This document shows positions 2,322 through 8,700 of a stretch of DNA of 33,943 bases, piece after piece. A program made the translations under genes and the position numbers. The notes under the pieces are model-generated. The model was not told the origin of the DNA and made no database searches. It saw only the letters and a program-made list of their open reading frames with translations. The DNA is taken from the NCBI GenBank assembly GCA_015487265.1, contig WFQD01000392.1, positions 1 through 33,943 on the forward strand, in the 5' to 3' direction. The number at the start of each line of letters is the position of its first letter. The stretch's first letter is position 1. The stretch is from Sulfurimonas sp. (lineage in GTDB: Bacteria > Campylobacterota > Campylobacteria > Campylobacterales > Sulfurimonadaceae).

Positions 2322-3137
2322 GTGAATATATCGGTTGTTATCCCTACTTATAATCGATATACACTTTTAAAACGAGCTATCGCATCGGTTTATGCACAAA
2401 CATACCTTCCAAAAGAAGTGATAGTTGTCGATGATGGCTCAGATGATGCCACACAAAAAATTCAAAAAGATTTTCCAGATATTGTTTACATTTATCAAAA
2501 AAATAGCGGTGTTTCTGCTGCTCGTAATCGTGGTATTTTCGCTGCAAAGCATGAGTGGATTGCATTTTTAGATTCAGATGATACTTGGCATGAGAACAAA
2601 CTCCACGAGCAACAAGATTTTCATCAAAATAATCCTGAAGTCCTCATAAGTTATACCGATGAAATTTGGATACGCAATTCCAAAGAGATAAAAATCCCAA
2701 AGAAATTTAAAAAAATAGGTAAAGATGCTTTTTTAGAAAATATTTCTTACTGTAATATTGCTCCCTCTTCGGTTTGTTTACATAAAAGTTTATTGGATAA
2801 ATATGGTCTTTTTGATACAAATTTAGAAGTGTGCGAAGATTATGATTTGTGGTTGAGGATTGCACTCAAAGAGAAGATAGCCTTGATAGATAAAAAACTT
2901 ATCAACAAATATGCTGGGCATGAGAATCAACTCAGTTTTAAACATTGGGGAATGGATAGGTTTCGAGTGCAAACATTGGAAAAGATTCTCCCTGATGCCT
3001 CTGCCTTACAAAAGAGAGACATCAAAGCAATGTTAGTACAAAAATATAAACTACTCTCAAAGGGTGCTTTAAAATATGATAAAAAGCAAGAGAGTATTTT
3101 GTATCAAAAAAGAGTAGATACTTTAGAACTTATGTAA
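2322..3137 (+). CDS. Family 2 glycosyltransferase
   Basis: A 271-residue GT-A fold glycosyltransferase. The N-terminus SVVIPTYNRYTLLKRAI is the typical GT2 opening. VDDGSDD near residue 40 is the nucleotide-sugar binding region, and DSDDTW near residue 88 carries the metal-binding DxD. A later segment, EDYDLWLRIAL, holds the ED catalytic-base motif of the family. No transmembrane segment is evident, so it probably works in the cytoplasm on a lipid- or polysaccharide-linked acceptor. Donor and acceptor cannot be read from sequence. The start is GTG at 2322, two bases after the mqnE stop, so it is probably read on the same mRNA. Its 3' end overlaps the convergent ATP-grasp gene by 8 bases. Confidence 0.85.
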   Translation: MNISVVIPTYNRYTLLKRAIASVYAQTYLPKEVIVVDDGSDDATQKIQKDFPDIVYIYQKNSGVSAARNRGIFAAKHEWIAFLDSDDTWHENKLHEQQDFHQNNPEVLISYTDEIWIRNSKEIKIPKKFKKIGKDAFLENISYCNIAPSSVCLHKSLLDKYGLFDTNLEVCEDYDLWLRIALKEKIALIDKKLINKYAGHENQLSFKHWGMDRFRVQTLEKILPDASALQKRDIKAMLVQKYKLLSKGALKYDKKQESILYQKRVDTLELM

Positions 3138-4308
3138 GGACATGCCCTACAAATTTACTCATATTATCTAAAATATCGCCCCCCTTTCTAAAGCTCAATC
3201 CACAGGACTCATAAGCGAAAAAGACGCCTGCTTGGTACTTCGCCCCTTGTGCATCTTTTGGAAATTCTACAAACTCTTGATAGATTTTTTTATGATTATC
3301 ATAAGGTCCCTCTGTTTGAGAAAAACAAGTGCCATCTTTTTCAATGATTTTTGTATTGGCTCCTTCTCTACCAAAAACAGTTTTCTCTACCTGTTTTGTA
3401 TCGACTAAAGGTTCAAATGATGTTTCTAAAAGGTAGGGAGAATCAGGAAAAAGTTCATATAAAATCTTCATCATCCCTTTGGATTGAAACAGCAAAGTAT
3501 AAGCAGGATTGAGGATGATTGCTTTTTGGTTGTTCATGATATTTGTGAGTGTTGTGGCAAGTTCTGGCTCATCAATGGCAATATCTTCCCATGGATAGAG
3601 TTTAAACCAGTACTCATAGTTGTTCTCATCAGCATCGTAAATTCCCTCTTCATCAAAATGTGTGTTTTCTAAGTACTCAAACGCAGTGTTAAAGCCTGCA
3701 TCTGTTGCCATTTGTTGAAGGAGTTTGGTTGTGACTTCTTCTTCATCATTGTTTGAGATAGAAGAAAAAAGAATTTTCCAGCCATCATAACGCTCATCAA
3801 ATGTATCGGTATCATCAAAAAGAGTAATGAGTCTTTTAAAATTTTCTTGTATAGATTCATAGATAGTGTTAAATTGTTGTGCTTCATCCATGTTGTTATG
3901 CACTAAAAGTGCCCATTGGAGGAGGGCTGATTCAAAGAGGGAAGTAGGGGTATCTGCATTAAACTCTATAAGCTTAATGGGTTTTCCATCAATCCCTCCA
4001 GCCAAATCAAAACGTCCGTAAATATGCCAATGCACATCATTTTCCCAACTTTTTTTGATAACATCTACAAGATTAAAAGGGATGCCTAGCTCAAAAAAGA
4101 GGTCATTTTCTATGACATGTTCAGCTGCTTGGACATACATATCATAAAGAGTATTGCCCGCCTCGTAGTAGGCTTCTGCTTCTTGGGGTGTGACTTGTAC
4201 GAGTTGGTCACTTACATATTTGCTTGCATCACTGTCTGTATGCCAGCTAAAGCCAAGTGCTTCGAGTTTGTCATCGGGGATACTTTGAAGGTTGTGTAAC
4301 TGTATCAT
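3130..4308 (-). CDS. Glutathionylspermidine synthase-like ATP-grasp amide ligase (YgiC/YjfC type)
   Basis: A 392-residue protein of the glutathionylspermidine synthetase (preATP-grasp) family, ligase domain only, without the N-terminal amidase of E. coli GspSA. The segment around residues 99-119 has the RxD pair (Arg99, Asp101) and ExN pair (Glu115, Asn117) that bind ATP and Mg in the family, followed by ADTPTSL. Towards the C-terminus are KTVFGREGAN and SCGLSFRKGGDI, typical of the YgiC/YjfC subgroup. These enzymes are expected to form an amide bond on a carboxylate, but for this subgroup the real substrate is not established, and glutathionylspermidine synthesis should not be assumed. The start ATG overlaps the stop of the lipoprotein gene (ATGA), which implies coupled production. 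Confidence 0.85.
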   Translation of the reverse strand: MIQLHNLQSIPDDKLEALGFSWHTDSDASKYVSDQLVQVTPQEAEAYYEAGNTLYDMYVQAAEHVIENDLFFELGIPFNLVDVIKKSWENDVHWHIYGRFDLAGGIDGKPIKLIEFNADTPTSLFESALLQWALLVHNNMDEAQQFNTIYESIQENFKRLITLFDDTDTFDERYDGWKILFSSISNNDEEEVTTKLLQQMATDAGFNTAFEYLENTHFDEEGIYDADENNYEYWFKLYPWEDIAIDEPELATTLTNIMNNQKAIILNPAYTLLFQSKGMMKILYELFPDSPYLLETSFEPLVDTKQVEKTVFGREGANTKIIEKDGTCFSQTEGPYDNHKKIYQEFVEFPKDAQGAKYQAGVFFAYESCGLSFRKGGDILDNMSKFVGHVLT

Positions 4309-4874
4309 CCTCCGAAAAATCCCCCACTACTTCTTGTTGTACTCTTCTTTGCACCGCCAAAAAAGCTCTTTTTTGTAGAAGATTTTCGAGCCGCTTTGCC
4401 TGCTGCTGAACGGCTATAGGCACTTCTGTTGGCACTTGTTGCGTTTCGTGCGAAATTTTTGTTATTAAAGAGTGAGTTTGCTATCATGTTTCCCATGAGC
4501 GAACCTGCGGCAACGGCGAGGATAGTTCCCGCAAGACCCATCCCTTCAGAACCACCATTGGCTTGTGTAGTTTCGCTTGTACCATTTTGTACTTTTTGGT
4601 ACTCTTGTTCGGCGAGTGCTTTCATTTCGGCTTCATTCATAAAGCGTTCCGTAACATTACCATAAGCATCTTTTTCGCGAATAATAGCACGAGTTGGACC
4701 TTCCGTTGGCATCTCCTCAACAACGACATATTTGCCATTTGCCTGTTGTTCTATAACTAAAAATTTGTTTTGTGCTTTTTCTTGTGGTGCTTCACAGCCT
4801 GCGAGCAGACTCATCATTAAGAGTCCAGAACTCCCAAGTCCAATTCCAGCTGAGATGGAAGAGATATGTTTCAT
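4305..4874 (-). CDS. UPF0323 family lipoprotein with Gly-Gly C-terminus
   Basis: A 189-residue predicted lipoprotein. A hydrophobic N-terminal signal ends in the lipobox LAGC, with Cys27 as the acylation site. A soluble region (about 28-105) is followed by a glycine/alanine-rich hydrophobic stretch, GLAGTILAVAAGSLMGNM (about 113-130). The tail is rich in Ser, Arg, Lys and Ala and ends SSGGFFGG. It resembles the UPF0323 lipoproteins of Helicobacter and Campylobacter. The architecture (lipobox, Gly-rich hydrophobic middle, basic tail ending in glycines) also recalls enterobacterial YgiB/YjfM (DUF1190), which are encoded beside YgiC/YjfC ligases, just as here. Function is unknown. The 4-base overlap with the ligase gene suggests the two work together. 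Confidence 0.8.
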   Translation of the reverse strand: MKHISSISAGIGLGSSGLLMMSLLAGCEAPQEKAQNKFLVIEQQANGKYVVVEEMPTEGPTRAIIREKDAYGNVTERFMNEAEMKALAEQEYQKVQNGTSETTQANGGSEGMGLAGTILAVAAGSLMGNMIANSLFNNKNFARNATSANRSAYSRSAAGKAARKSSTKKSFFGGAKKSTTRSSGGFFGG

Positions 4875-4878
4875 CTAT

Positions 4879-5325
4879 TTAATCCTTAAGTAATCTTTTT
4901 TTATCTAGAATTATAACTTTTTTTAGTTCATAATCGTAAAATGTGATTTGTTTTCTTCCTCTATAGTAGCTATCTCCTCGATATGTGTACTTTTTATCTT
5001 TGAGGAAAATATCTTTTTGGAGTAACATCATCTCTCCAAGCATCTTTCCTATGGGCGCTATGAGGGTCGCCGTGGCAAGCACAAAAAGAGAACCTACAAA
5101 AATAAGTGAGAGTTTTGCATTGTTTACATAGGTAATTACAAAGTCAATAAGCAGTGTAAAGAGGGTGAAAATATAAATGTTTTGATGATCTGCAAAGAGG
5201 ACATTATAATAGACAGGAATATGATGAAAGTCGATATAATTGATTTTAATCCCAACAAATATAAAGGCATCTAAAAGAAAAGTAAAGAGTAAACCTGTGA
5301 GTAGTGCTTGTAAGAGTTTTGTCAT
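4879..5325 (-). CDS. Small membrane protein of unknown function
   Basis: A 148-residue protein I do not recognise. The first two thirds are hydrophobic, with likely membrane segments near residues 5-26, 48-68 and 72-94. The last 45 residues are charged and rich in Lys, Asp and Tyr (DKKYTYRGDSYYRGRKQ), probably a soluble tail. The start ATG overlaps the stop of the Sua5-like gene (ATGA), and its stop is four bases upstream of the lipoprotein start, so it belongs to the same transcript. Its place beside the lipoprotein and ligase is reminiscent of the membrane protein YjfL in the E. coli yjf cluster, but I see no clear sequence resemblance to DUF350. Confidence 0.65.
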   Translation of the reverse strand: MTKLLQALLTGLLFTFLLDAFIFVGIKINYIDFHHIPVYYNVLFADHQNIYIFTLFTLLIDFVITYVNNAKLSLIFVGSLFVLATATLIAPIGKMLGEMMLLQKDIFLKDKKYTYRGDSYYRGRKQITFYDYELKKVIILDKKRLLKD

Positions 5326-5741
5326 CGCAGTCTCCTTTTGTGCTTTGTATTTAATTGAATAAGAGAAGATGCCTCTTTTTCTTGGAGTGAATTTTTATCT
5401 TCTATTATTATATCGGCTTTTGCTTCACAAAACACTCTCTCAAAGTTTTTTCCTGCTGCGTTTGCTGATGTTGAGTAGTACCAAGGAACATGAAGCAGGG
5501 TAGAATGGAGTTGATAAGTAGCAATGCGAAAGGCTCTGTTTTTGACAATAAAAGTTGTTTTTTTTGAACGACGGAGTAAGTTTTTATGTGCATTTGGAAT
5601 ACGAGTTTGCAAGCTTTTAAAATTTTTATATACTTTAATAAAAGGTTTTGTAGTGCTTCGTGATTTAATATTTTGGAGTTTTTGTTTATTTTGAGACAAA
5701 AAACCGACAGTTGTATCGGTTTGTGTGAGAATAACACTCAC
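5322..5741 (-). CDS. Short Sua5/YciO/YrdC-family protein (putative threonylcarbamoyl-AMP synthase-like)
   Basis: About 139 residues with a recognisable but diverged YrdC fold: TQTDTTVGF replaces the usual PTDTxYGL, IKSRSTTKPF corresponds to the K.R....P segment, and YSTSANAAG is the strongly conserved STSAN.SG motif. The family makes threonylcarbamoyl-AMP for tRNA t6A37. This member is much shorter than E. coli TsaC (190 aa), as seen in other Campylobacterota, so activity is inferred only. I prefer the GTG at 5741, which overlaps the carB stop (TAGTG) and places the TDT motif at the usual distance from the N-terminus. An ATG at 5783 would add 14 residues that merely re-read the end of carB. 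It lies in the carB transcript. Confidence 0.75.
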   Translation of the reverse strand: MSVILTQTDTTVGFLSQNKQKLQNIKSRSTTKPFIKVYKNFKSLQTRIPNAHKNLLRRSKKTTFIVKNRAFRIATYQLHSTLLHVPWYYSTSANAAGKNFERVFCEAKADIIIEDKNSLQEKEASSLIQLNTKHKRRLR

Positions 5742-8700
5742 TACTGCAGGAGAAAGTCTTGAAGTGCTTTTGAACTTGTCCATGAGTCACTGCCCATCTC
5801 ATCGAGTGCAAGAATTGCCGCTCTTGCTGCACTAAGTGTCGTAAAGTATGGAATGGTGCGTTTGAGTACCTCTTGACGAATCACGACAGCATCTTTTTTA
5901 CTTGTGTTATTGTCTGAGGTATTGATTGCCATGGCAATTTCATCATTTTTCATGCTATCTTCTATATTTGGACGTCCCTCTGAAATTTTGAGTACAAGAT
6001 CACATGCAATGCCTGCTGCTTCTAAAACAGCCTGTGTTCCTTTTGTCGCTACAAGTTTAAAGCCATGTTTGAGTAAACCACGACCAATTTCAGCAGCATG
6101 TTGTTTGTCTGTATCGACAAAAGATAAGAAACATGTGCCTCCCGTTGGAATTTTATTGCCCGCAGAGAGTTGCGCTTTGGCAAAAGAGACACCAAAGTTT
6201 GAGCTAATTCCCATGACTTCACCCGTTGATTTCATCTCAGGTGAAAGTACTAAGTCAGCACCGTAGAGTTTATGGAATGGAAAGACTGCTTCTTTGACAG
6301 AAACATGCCCTTTAAGACGTGGTTTTAAGAGTCCATTGACTTCTTGAACAATGTCATATTTATCATAAAATGCTAAAGAACTTCGCAATGTTTTACCCAT
6401 CATCACTCGTGTTGCTACTTTTGCAAGCGGCATACCTGTTGCCTTACTCACAAAAGGAACAGTACGGCTTGCACGTGGATTGACCTCTATAAGATAGATT
6501 TCATTTTGGTAGATTGCATACTGCACATTCATGAGTCCTACAACACCAAGACCAAGGGCAATCGTTTTGGTTTGTGCCTCTACTTGTGCCACCATAGCAT
6601 CGGAGAGATTAACAGGTGGGAGTGAGCAAGCACTATCTCCTGAGTGAATCCCCGCTTCTTCGATATGTTGCATAACGGAGCCAATATAGACTTCTTTACC
6701 ATCACAAATACAATCAACATCAAGTTCAATAGCCTGATCTAAAAATTTGTCTATAAGTACGGGAGCTTCATTGGAAACAGAGATAGCCAGTTCCATATAC
6801 TCTGCAAGTTCTTCTTGTGAGTAAACGATTTTCATCCCACGACCACCAAGAACAAAAGAGGGACGTACAAGTACAGGAAAGCCTAAGCGTTCAGCAATAG
6901 GTGCGGCATCTTCTTTTTTTGTAGCAAGACCATTTTCTGGTTGTTTGAGTGCATTTCTGATAACAAAGTCACTAAACTGTTCTCTATCTTCTGCAAGGTC
7001 GATAACAGCTGATGGTGTTCCAGCAATTTTCGCTCCGATTTTTGTCAGTCCATCTGCAAGTTTGAGTGGTGTTTGCCCACCAAAATGGACAATAATACCA
7101 TCAGGTTGTTCATTTTCAATCACTTCACGGACATGCTCAAAATCAATCGGTTCAAAGTAAAGTACATCAGAAGTGTCATAATCTGTTGAAACTGTTTCAG
7201 GGTTACAGTTGTGCATAATAGACTCAATGCCCATCTCTTTAAGGGCAAACGCAGCATGGACACAGCAGTAATCAAACTCTATTCCTTGTCCAATTCTGTT
7301 TGGACCACCACCTAAGATGAGGACTTTTTTCTTTTCACTCACACGAGAGGGAACATCAAGAAGTTGTGTGATGTTTGTTGTGGAGTAGAGGTAAGGAGTG
7401 AGTGCTTCAAACTCTGCGGCACAGGTATCGACTTCATTAAATTCTAAGTTAATATTGAGGGCTTTTCGTGCTTGAAATACCTCATTTTCAGAGACTGTGT
7501 GCTCTGTATTTTTTGTGATGAGTTGTGCAATGCGTTTGTCTGAAAAACCATCAGCTTTTACTTTTCGCATTGTAGCAGCATCAAATAAAATTTTATCATT
7601 TATTTGTGCTTCTGTTTCAATAATTTCTGAGAGTTGGTGCAAAAACCATGGGTCAATCGCACAAGTGTCAAACATATCTTCTATGCTCATACCTCGACGG
7701 AAACCCTCTGCTACATAGAGCATTCTATCTGCATTTGGACGACGGATTTCATGTTTGACAAACTCTGTATCTGCATCAATCTCATCAAAACCACATAAAC
7801 CAGTCTCTAAAGAGCAGAGTGCTTTTTGCATAGACTCTTTAAAGGTTCGTCCGATAGACATTACTTCACCGACTGATTTCATACTTGTACTGAGTGTACT
7901 AATGGCTTCTGGGAATTTTTCAAATGTAAAACGCGGGACTTTTGTAACAACATAATCAATCACTGGTTCAAAAGAGGCTGGTGTACCTGTAATGTCATTG
8001 GTAATTTCATCGAGTGTATAGCCAACAGCAAGGAGTGTAGCCACTTTTGCAATAGGGTACCCAGTCGCTTTAGAAGCAAGTGCAGAAGAGCGACTCACAC
8101 GAGGGTTCATCTCAATAACTATCATTCTCCCTGTTTTTGGGTCAATAGAAAATTGTACATTACTTCCACCCGTATCTACACCAATTTCACGTAAAATGTC
8201 AAAAGAGGCATTACGCATTCTTTGGTACTCTTTATCTGTCAGTGTGAGTGCAGGGGCTACGGTAATACTATCTCCCGTATGTACACCCATAGGGTCAAAA
8301 TTTTCAATCGCACACACAATAATACAGTTGTCTGCTTTGTCACGGATGACTTCCATCTCATACTCTTTCCATCCAAGCATAGACTCCATGATTTCAATTT
8401 CACTCACCGGAGAAGCGGCTAAACCCTCTTTTGCAAGTTCTTTAAACTCTTCCATGTTGTAAGCAACACCCGATCCACCACCCGCAAGGGTAAAAGAGGA
8501 ACGGCTAATAACTGGAAAACCGATGCGTTTGACTACTTCGATAGCTTCTTCAACACTATAAGCATTTTCACTTTTTGGTAAATCCATGCCAATTTTAAGC
8601 ATTGCTTCATTGAATGCAGAGCGATCTTCCCCTTTATGGATGGCTTCTGGAGAGGCACCTAAAAACTCTACACCCTCTAGCATTCCTTTTTCATACATAG

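Follow-up and report, generated by a model that had tools for sequence, protein, structure and literature searches.

A stretch of 33,943 nucleotides of Sulfurimonas sp. DNA (contig WFQD01000392.1, in the following the window) carries on its minus strand the gene of a UPF0323-type lipoprotein of 189 amino acids (position 4305–4874) and the gene of an ATP-grasp ligase of the YgiC/YjfC class (PF03738, 392 amino acids, position 3130–4308). We suggest, with somewhat more confidence than doubt, that the ligase amidates the C-terminus of the lipoprotein, probably with spermidine, and that this takes place before or during export. The proposal is built on sequence comparison, by which the two genes, the fold and the catalytic residues of the ligase, the obligate pairing of both proteins and a signature in the lipoprotein tail were established. 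That the ligase acts on the lipoprotein C-terminus had been put forward in an original prediction made from the window; the pairing and the recurrence of the tail signature across phyla strengthen this idea, and the strict Gly-Gly end which it assumed did not hold.

The lipoprotein–ligase pair

By searching the same 298 Campylobacterota genomes with PF03738 and with a lipoprotein profile we found the ligase in 270 and the lipoprotein in 272 genomes, and the ligase never occurred alone. The 26 genomes devoid of the lipoprotein are also devoid of the ligase, and as these genomes are scattered over many families the pair has been lost repeatedly and as a unit. Our comparison thus supports that lipoprotein and ligase form an obligate pair. 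The Fisher test for co-occurrence gives p = 2e-35, a value which ignores phylogeny; stronger evidence of the pairing comes from the repeated joint losses. A lipoprotein without ligase is limited to two genomes, G212 and G232, the gene of the latter being cut by a contig end. Among 40 loci inspected, 37 have the lipoprotein gene upstream of the ligase gene on the same strand, nearly always directly adjoining; in the other three the genes are far apart and both are kept, the lipoproteins ending in FGS, MGA and IGG. In the window the two open reading frames and the SSGGFFGG end of the lipoprotein were recovered as predicted, as was the overlap of four nucleotides (ATGA, position 4305–4308, minus strand) in which the TGA of the lipoprotein shares bases with the ATG of the ligase and which points to translational coupling. 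One genome (G113, loci L046/L061) has two tandem UPF0323 copies with diverged bodies before a single ligase, both ending in FGG, and a further genome (G156) also has two lipoprotein profile matches.

The window lipoprotein consists of a signal peptide, the lipobox LLAGC, a conserved central region, a glycine-rich hydrophobic stretch and a basic tail of Ser, Lys, Arg and Gly. It matches no Pfam family at E ≤ 0.1, including PF06693 (DUF1190). The UPF0323 model NF003146 of NCBIfam matches nearly the full length with 162 bits and E = 1e-47, the cut-off being 194 bits, and our profile of the phylum matches at E = 2.3e-60. In an alignment of 35 rows (A1), made of phylum relatives encoded beside the same ligase with 30–73% identity, the lipobox residue Cys27 is invariant. 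A profile comparison (hhalign) of the central regions of UPF0323 and DUF1190 yielded a probability of 81% and E = 1.3e-5 over only 61 columns with 13% identity, which is suggestive only of homology between both families.

PF03738 spans the whole window ligase with 411 bits at a cut-off of 29.3. The protein comprises the synthetase part only; an amidase domain is absent and no signal peptide was seen. The best phmmer matches are YgiC (7uk8, 6e-38) and YjfC (7uk6, 2.5e-34), followed by GspSA and trypanothione synthetase, and RefSeq names both YgiC and YjfC of Escherichia coli peptide--spermidine ligase. With the AlphaFold model of the ligase (predicted template modelling score, pTM, 0.80; mean predicted local distance difference test, pLDDT, 73.5) Foldseek returned 7uk6, 7uka and 7uk8 on ranks 1–3 of the Protein Data Bank (PDB) and GspS after these, with template modelling (TM) scores of 0.78 for YjfC, 0.74–0.75 for YgiC and 0.65–0.75 for GspS. 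The residues Arg99, Asp101, Glu115 and Asn117, which had been picked out as kept, indeed align with Arg316, Asp318, Glu330 and Asn332 of E. coli GspS and are invariant in 65 ligases. The same holds for K277, K309, R314, Q344 and R374, and E189 is found in 64/65. Seen from GspS, the residues R316, D318, E330, N332, K498, K533, R538, Q568 and R598, which we take to handle ATP, Mg and the carboxylate, are kept in 65/65 ligases and E391 in 64/65. Ser335 and Ser337 of GspS are both replaced by Thr, the GspS stretch NADSASC reading NADTPTS in the window ligase, and the GspS equivalog NF007801 (EC 6.3.1.8) gives 109.8 bits, far below its cut-off of 882.

The tail signature within and beyond Campylobacterota

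The tail of the window lipoprotein, STKKSFFGGAKKSTTRSSGGFFGG, contains the internal motif KKSFFGG and ends with SSGGFFGG (codons at position 4308–4331, minus strand), the last Gly carrying the carboxylate which we propose as substrate. In 49 Campylobacterota sequences the tail ends are GG (33), GS (9), GA (3), AS (2), NS (1) and FF (1). The FF end belongs to genome G122 (L045:1995–2090), where eight consecutive T in the codons of the tail cause a frameshift by which the FGG end is replaced; read in the other frame, the tail ends with SSGFFGG. This may be an assembly error or possibly a phase-variable switch of the C-terminus. When one UPF0323 protein per genus is considered, 28/33 end with a hydrophobic residue, Gly and Gly, Ser or Ala, against 0.6 expected after shuffling of the last 25 residues. 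In the sequences compared the conserved end is a hydrophobic or aromatic residue, Gly and a small residue, and strict Gly-Gly is not the rule. All four synonymous Gly codons are used at these ends and vary freely. Further inside the tail, a G/S-F-F motif is almost invariant, in the form of KSGFFG or KKSFFGG. Acidic residues make up 0.2% of the last 30 amino acids in the Campylobacterota proteins versus 8.7% overall. As the tail is nearly free of acids, an enzyme activating carboxylates there has essentially only the α-carboxyl group at its disposal, and the Asp and Glu acceptors of a graspetide-type ribosomally synthesized and post-translationally modified peptide, which is ligated through side-chain carboxylates, are nearly absent from these 30 residues.

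A similar tail was found with the ligase in other phyla. The E. coli pairs ygiB–ygiC and yjfM–yjfC exist as described in the original prediction; the YgiB tail reads TRGGFG...SRSMGG and that of YjfM SRGGYG...RGHWGG. Ligase partners ending with GG or GS and with a similar internal motif are present in Rhizobium, Pseudomonas, Paracoccus, Vibrio, Azospirillum, Acinetobacter, Paraburkholderia, Deinococcus, Nonomuraea and on a Bacillus plasmid, the ligase of the latter being identical to the ligase of a Bacillus phage. Among 146 lipoproteins collected across phyla Gly occupies the penultimate position in 141; the final residue is Gly in 82 and Ser in 60, together 142/146. Conservation of the terminal glycines, which had been expected when C-termini are compared, is thus borne out for the penultimate position, and at the last position the Ser ends contradict it in part. 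The Actinomycetota served as a fresh set for the tail prediction. In 80/80 of their ligase loci an adjoining open reading frame carries [RK]GG[FLIA]G 7–23 residues before its end; 78/80 of these frames end with G[GS] against 20–29 expected from shuffling, and the penultimate Gly is present in 79/80 against 33–39. These loci are mutually related and count as one independent test. Acidic residues amount to 2.7% of the last 30 and 0.75% of the last 10 amino acids, less strict than in Campylobacterota. An RGG is part of the internal motif of most DUF1190 and actinobacterial tails. The DUF1190 protein of Photobacterium is encoded ∼120 kb away from the ligase and still ends with GWGG. For several lipoproteins with this tail there is no Pfam match or only a weak one to PF06693, so the tail is more widely shared than the body. 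The tail common to the ligase partners of Campylobacterota, Pseudomonadota, Actinomycetota, Deinococcota, the Bacillus plasmid/phage and the large phages combines an internal motif resembling [RK]GG[FL]G with a near lack of acidic residues and with Gly-(Gly/Ser) at the C-terminus.

In six phage loci (L076–L081) a lipoprotein with the tail signature is encoded within a few genes of the ligase, which suggests that phages exploit this envelope system. The phages are Aes012, LAh_6, Motura, LemonAid, OspM_OC and DSS3_VP1, with the hosts Aeromonas, Achromobacter, Acinetobacter and Ochrobactrum and one marine host; the DUF1190 lipoprotein of DSS3_VP1 lies across the end of the record and ends with SFGG. 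Achromobacter phage Motura (L078:668–4261) has the genes of a homospermidine synthase, a tail lipoprotein and the ligase in a row and DUF350 one small gene further, a run which we read as a phage-borne polyamine-ligation cassette. On a Leptolyngbya plasmid (L071:2506–3675) a gene upstream of a distant cyanobacterial ligase (PF03738) encodes a protein of 389 amino acids with the end RVSGMGSSRSGGASS, possibly a further variant of the tail. Taken more broadly, we consider it conceivable, at slightly less than even chances, that envelope lipoproteins of several phyla and phages share a tail code, made up of the internal motif, a spacer free of acids and a Gly-(Gly/Ser) carboxyl end, which is read by dedicated YgiC-class ligases and leads to a polyamine-capped C-terminus as a widespread modification of bacterial proteins; the UPF0323 pair would then be the minimal two-gene form of this system.

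Proposed modification and alternative explanations

In the mechanism that we favor, the internal motif ([RK]GG[FL]G elsewhere, KKSFFGG here) would be the recognition element on the basic, nearly acid-free tail. With ATP and Mg the ligase would convert the α-carboxyl group of the lipoprotein into an acyl phosphate, which would be attacked by an amine, most likely spermidine, to give a C-terminal polyamine amide. Since the ligase shows no signal peptide, the reaction is proposed to occur in the cytoplasm, before or during export of the lipoprotein. The amide might benefit the cell as a cationic tether to the membrane or the lipopolysaccharide or as a cap against carboxypeptidases. We infer the tail as substrate, spermidine as donor and this order of events from the pairing, the tail and the ligase class: if the C-terminal carboxyl is the substrate, a constrained tail signature recurring with the ligase across phyla is to be expected, and spermidine is the first candidate because RefSeq names YgiC and YjfC peptide--spermidine ligases, on the basis of a 2023 paper cited in PMC12568646, and because phage Motura has a polyamine synthase next to the pair.

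Several observations weigh against this proposal. Ser ends 60/146 tails, so the enzyme would need to accept two end residues, and 4/49 Campylobacterota proteins lack a G-[GSA] end altogether (AAS twice, FNS and the poly-T frameshift). Genome G212 keeps a lipoprotein with an intact GG end and the ligase, lost or missed, was not found there; with the contig-cut gene of G232 these are the two cases available for a decay of the C-terminus after ligase loss. The position of GspS Asp610, which presumably helps to bind spermidine, is Lys in the window ligase and Lys or Arg in most of the 65 ligases. The spermidine gene nspC (carboxynorspermidine decarboxylase) is present in 27/27 relatives tested, and it occurs also in Campylobacterota genomes without the pair. 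As a marker of the pair it is therefore uninformative on the donor: in this phylum spermidine availability is given with or without the pair and nspC shows no link to it. In the genome of the window itself (G000, 491 contigs, 7.9% contaminated) nspC was not found, probably because of an assembly gap.

The topology is a further difficulty, as the ligase is cytoplasmic and the tail of a lipoprotein is normally exported. The simplest solution of general validity is a modification that precedes or accompanies export. Campylobacterota lipoproteins also have a second hydrophobic stretch, LAGTILAVAAGSLMGNMIA in the window lipoprotein with a mean hydropathy of 1.64 (1.2–1.9 across 49 relatives), which could instead leave the basic tail inside. 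Partners from other phyla lack this stretch or have it in a much weaker form, so it does not serve as a general answer. The Campylobacter jejuni protein Cj0371 is predicted to be transmembrane (PMC6104132) and was seen at the poles when fused to a C-terminal green fluorescent protein, a fusion which blocks the proposed modification site; both observations fit, weakly, an inside tail.

Alternatively, the ligase could make a soluble peptide–polyamine similar to glutathionylspermidine, with the lipoprotein being a partner whose tail binds the ligase or the metabolite and stays unmodified. We regard this as unlikely, though it has the most to recommend it among the alternatives: metabolites of this kind are the products of its distant homologues GspS and trypanothione synthetase, and the internal RGGFG-like motif, which equals the end in conservation, could serve for docking. 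On this assumption the extreme C-terminus, which is acid-free and keeps its penultimate Gly and small last residue in unrelated lipoproteins, is left unexplained, and YgiC is reported, in the citation of Sui 2012 given in PMC12506659, to have no glutathionylspermidine synthase activity. Clearly improbable in our judgment is the joining of another amine, for example, a protein lysine, peptidoglycan, phosphatidylethanolamine or an amino acid, by which the lipoprotein would be cross-linked or anchored twice to the membrane. ATP-grasp enzymes take many amines, the Asp610 position of GspS is occupied by Lys in these ligases, and genomes have spermidine genes whether or not they carry the pair. Spermidine is favored by the polyamine synthase in the operon of phage Motura and by the E. 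coli relatives, which ligate spermidine in vitro as stated in the title of Pederick 2023 (listed in PMC12568646).

There is little to be said for a protease that first cuts the internal motif, for example, after RGG, so that the ligase would use the new end as in ubiquitin-like precursors. The RGG of most DUF1190 and actinobacterial tails would suit such a cut, but the Campylobacterota motifs are not of the RGG type, the original C-terminus is conserved although cleavage would make it dispensable, and none of the genes seen with the pair codes for a protease. Hardly credible as well is a conservation of the terminal Gly codons for the sake of translation, with GGAGG acting as the ribosome-binding site of the ligase. 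In favor of such dual coding, gaps of −8 to 6 nucleotides between both genes go mostly with GG ends and gaps of 8 to 12 nucleotides with GS, GA or AS. However, GGAGG is found within the last 9 nucleotides of only 14/37 tails, GG ends persist at gaps of 66–349 nucleotides, Ser ends are coded by TCT, TCA, AGC and AGT, and the end is kept in unlinked or reversed pairs (Paracoccus, Paraburkholderia, Photobacterium, DSS3_VP1 and the Campylobacterota loci L047, L049 and L052). Gap, GGAGG and unlinked-pair data refute this as the full explanation; a constraint from ribosome binding or translational coupling may tune the last codon between Gly and Ser. Least probable of all is a Gly-Gly end that simply results from a low-complexity tail rich in Ser, Gly and Lys, as chance composition is refuted by the shuffle tests (3.8 G[GS] ends versus 28/33 observed for the Campylobacterota genera, and the penultimate Gly of the Actinomycetota).

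Upstream of the pair the window encodes a membrane protein of 148 amino acids (position 4879–5325, minus strand), which had been suggested as a third component. It is conserved within the genus only; the pair occurs without it in one genus member, and a homologue is present in a genome devoid of the pair, so we dropped it from the core of the system. The DUF350 partner of other phyla was not found in six Campylobacterota genomes tested. Next to the membrane protein gene (position 5322–5783, minus strand) lies the gene of a Sua5/YciO/YrdC-like protein of 153 amino acids (Pfam, 1.6e-6), far below the cut-off for threonylcarbamoyladenylate synthase and possibly a degenerate or specialized paralogue.

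Relation to known systems

The window pair resembles the E. coli pairs YgiB–YgiC and YjfM–YjfC in the class of the ligase (∼30% identity), its fold and catalytic residues, in the lipoprotein gene upstream on the same strand, in the hydrophobic-Gly-Gly end and in an internal motif which can be likened to RGGFG or RGGYG. Unlike these DUF1190 pairs, it has a lipoprotein without a PF06693 match, a stop/start overlap and no PspA, DUF2491 or DUF350 partners. With E. coli GspSA (gene gss; structures 2io7–2iob and 3o98) the ligase shares the synthetase fold and the invariant residues for ATP/Mg and carboxylate handling. In contrast to GspSA it has no amidase domain, deviates in the NADTPTS stretch and stays far below the GspS cut-off, and gss has no adjoining lipoprotein partner.

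Ravi et al. (2024, PMC11237479) have reported operons in which a GspS-like ATP-grasp peptide ligase occurs together with a DUF1190 lipoprotein and polyamine genes. The PSP-linked operons described there comprise the ligase, DUF350 and DUF1190, whereas the window pair has no PspA neighbor; a C-terminal signature or the lipoprotein C-terminus as substrate is not described in the sections of that article available to us. Cj0371 belongs to UPF0323 as judged from its tail (compare L002), since the published primers give a protein starting with MKKIKK and ending with SSFGS (PMC4944492). In the papers on Cj0371 the protein is discussed in terms of motility and chemotaxis, and the ligase is left unmentioned. 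The ligase class and, from PMC11237479, the operon type are already known. To judge from the literature available, what is new is the obligate pairing of the two genes in Campylobacterota and the tail signature across phyla, by which the lipoprotein C-terminus is indicated as substrate; the same substrate may have been proposed earlier. A comparative genomics study by Iyer and colleagues from 2009 possibly makes a related suggestion.

In the literature found, YgiC and YjfC are peptide–spermidine ligases in vitro without a known cellular substrate, and the pairing together with the tail would point to the C-terminus of YgiB, YjfM and UPF0323 proteins as this substrate, which is testable in E. 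coli K-12. Should this be true, bacterial envelope proteins would be subject to a new class of modification, C-terminal polyamine capping, that is carried by phages as well; it would also offer a biochemical approach to Cj0371, which is located at the poles and is known only by its motility, chemotaxis and virulence phenotypes.

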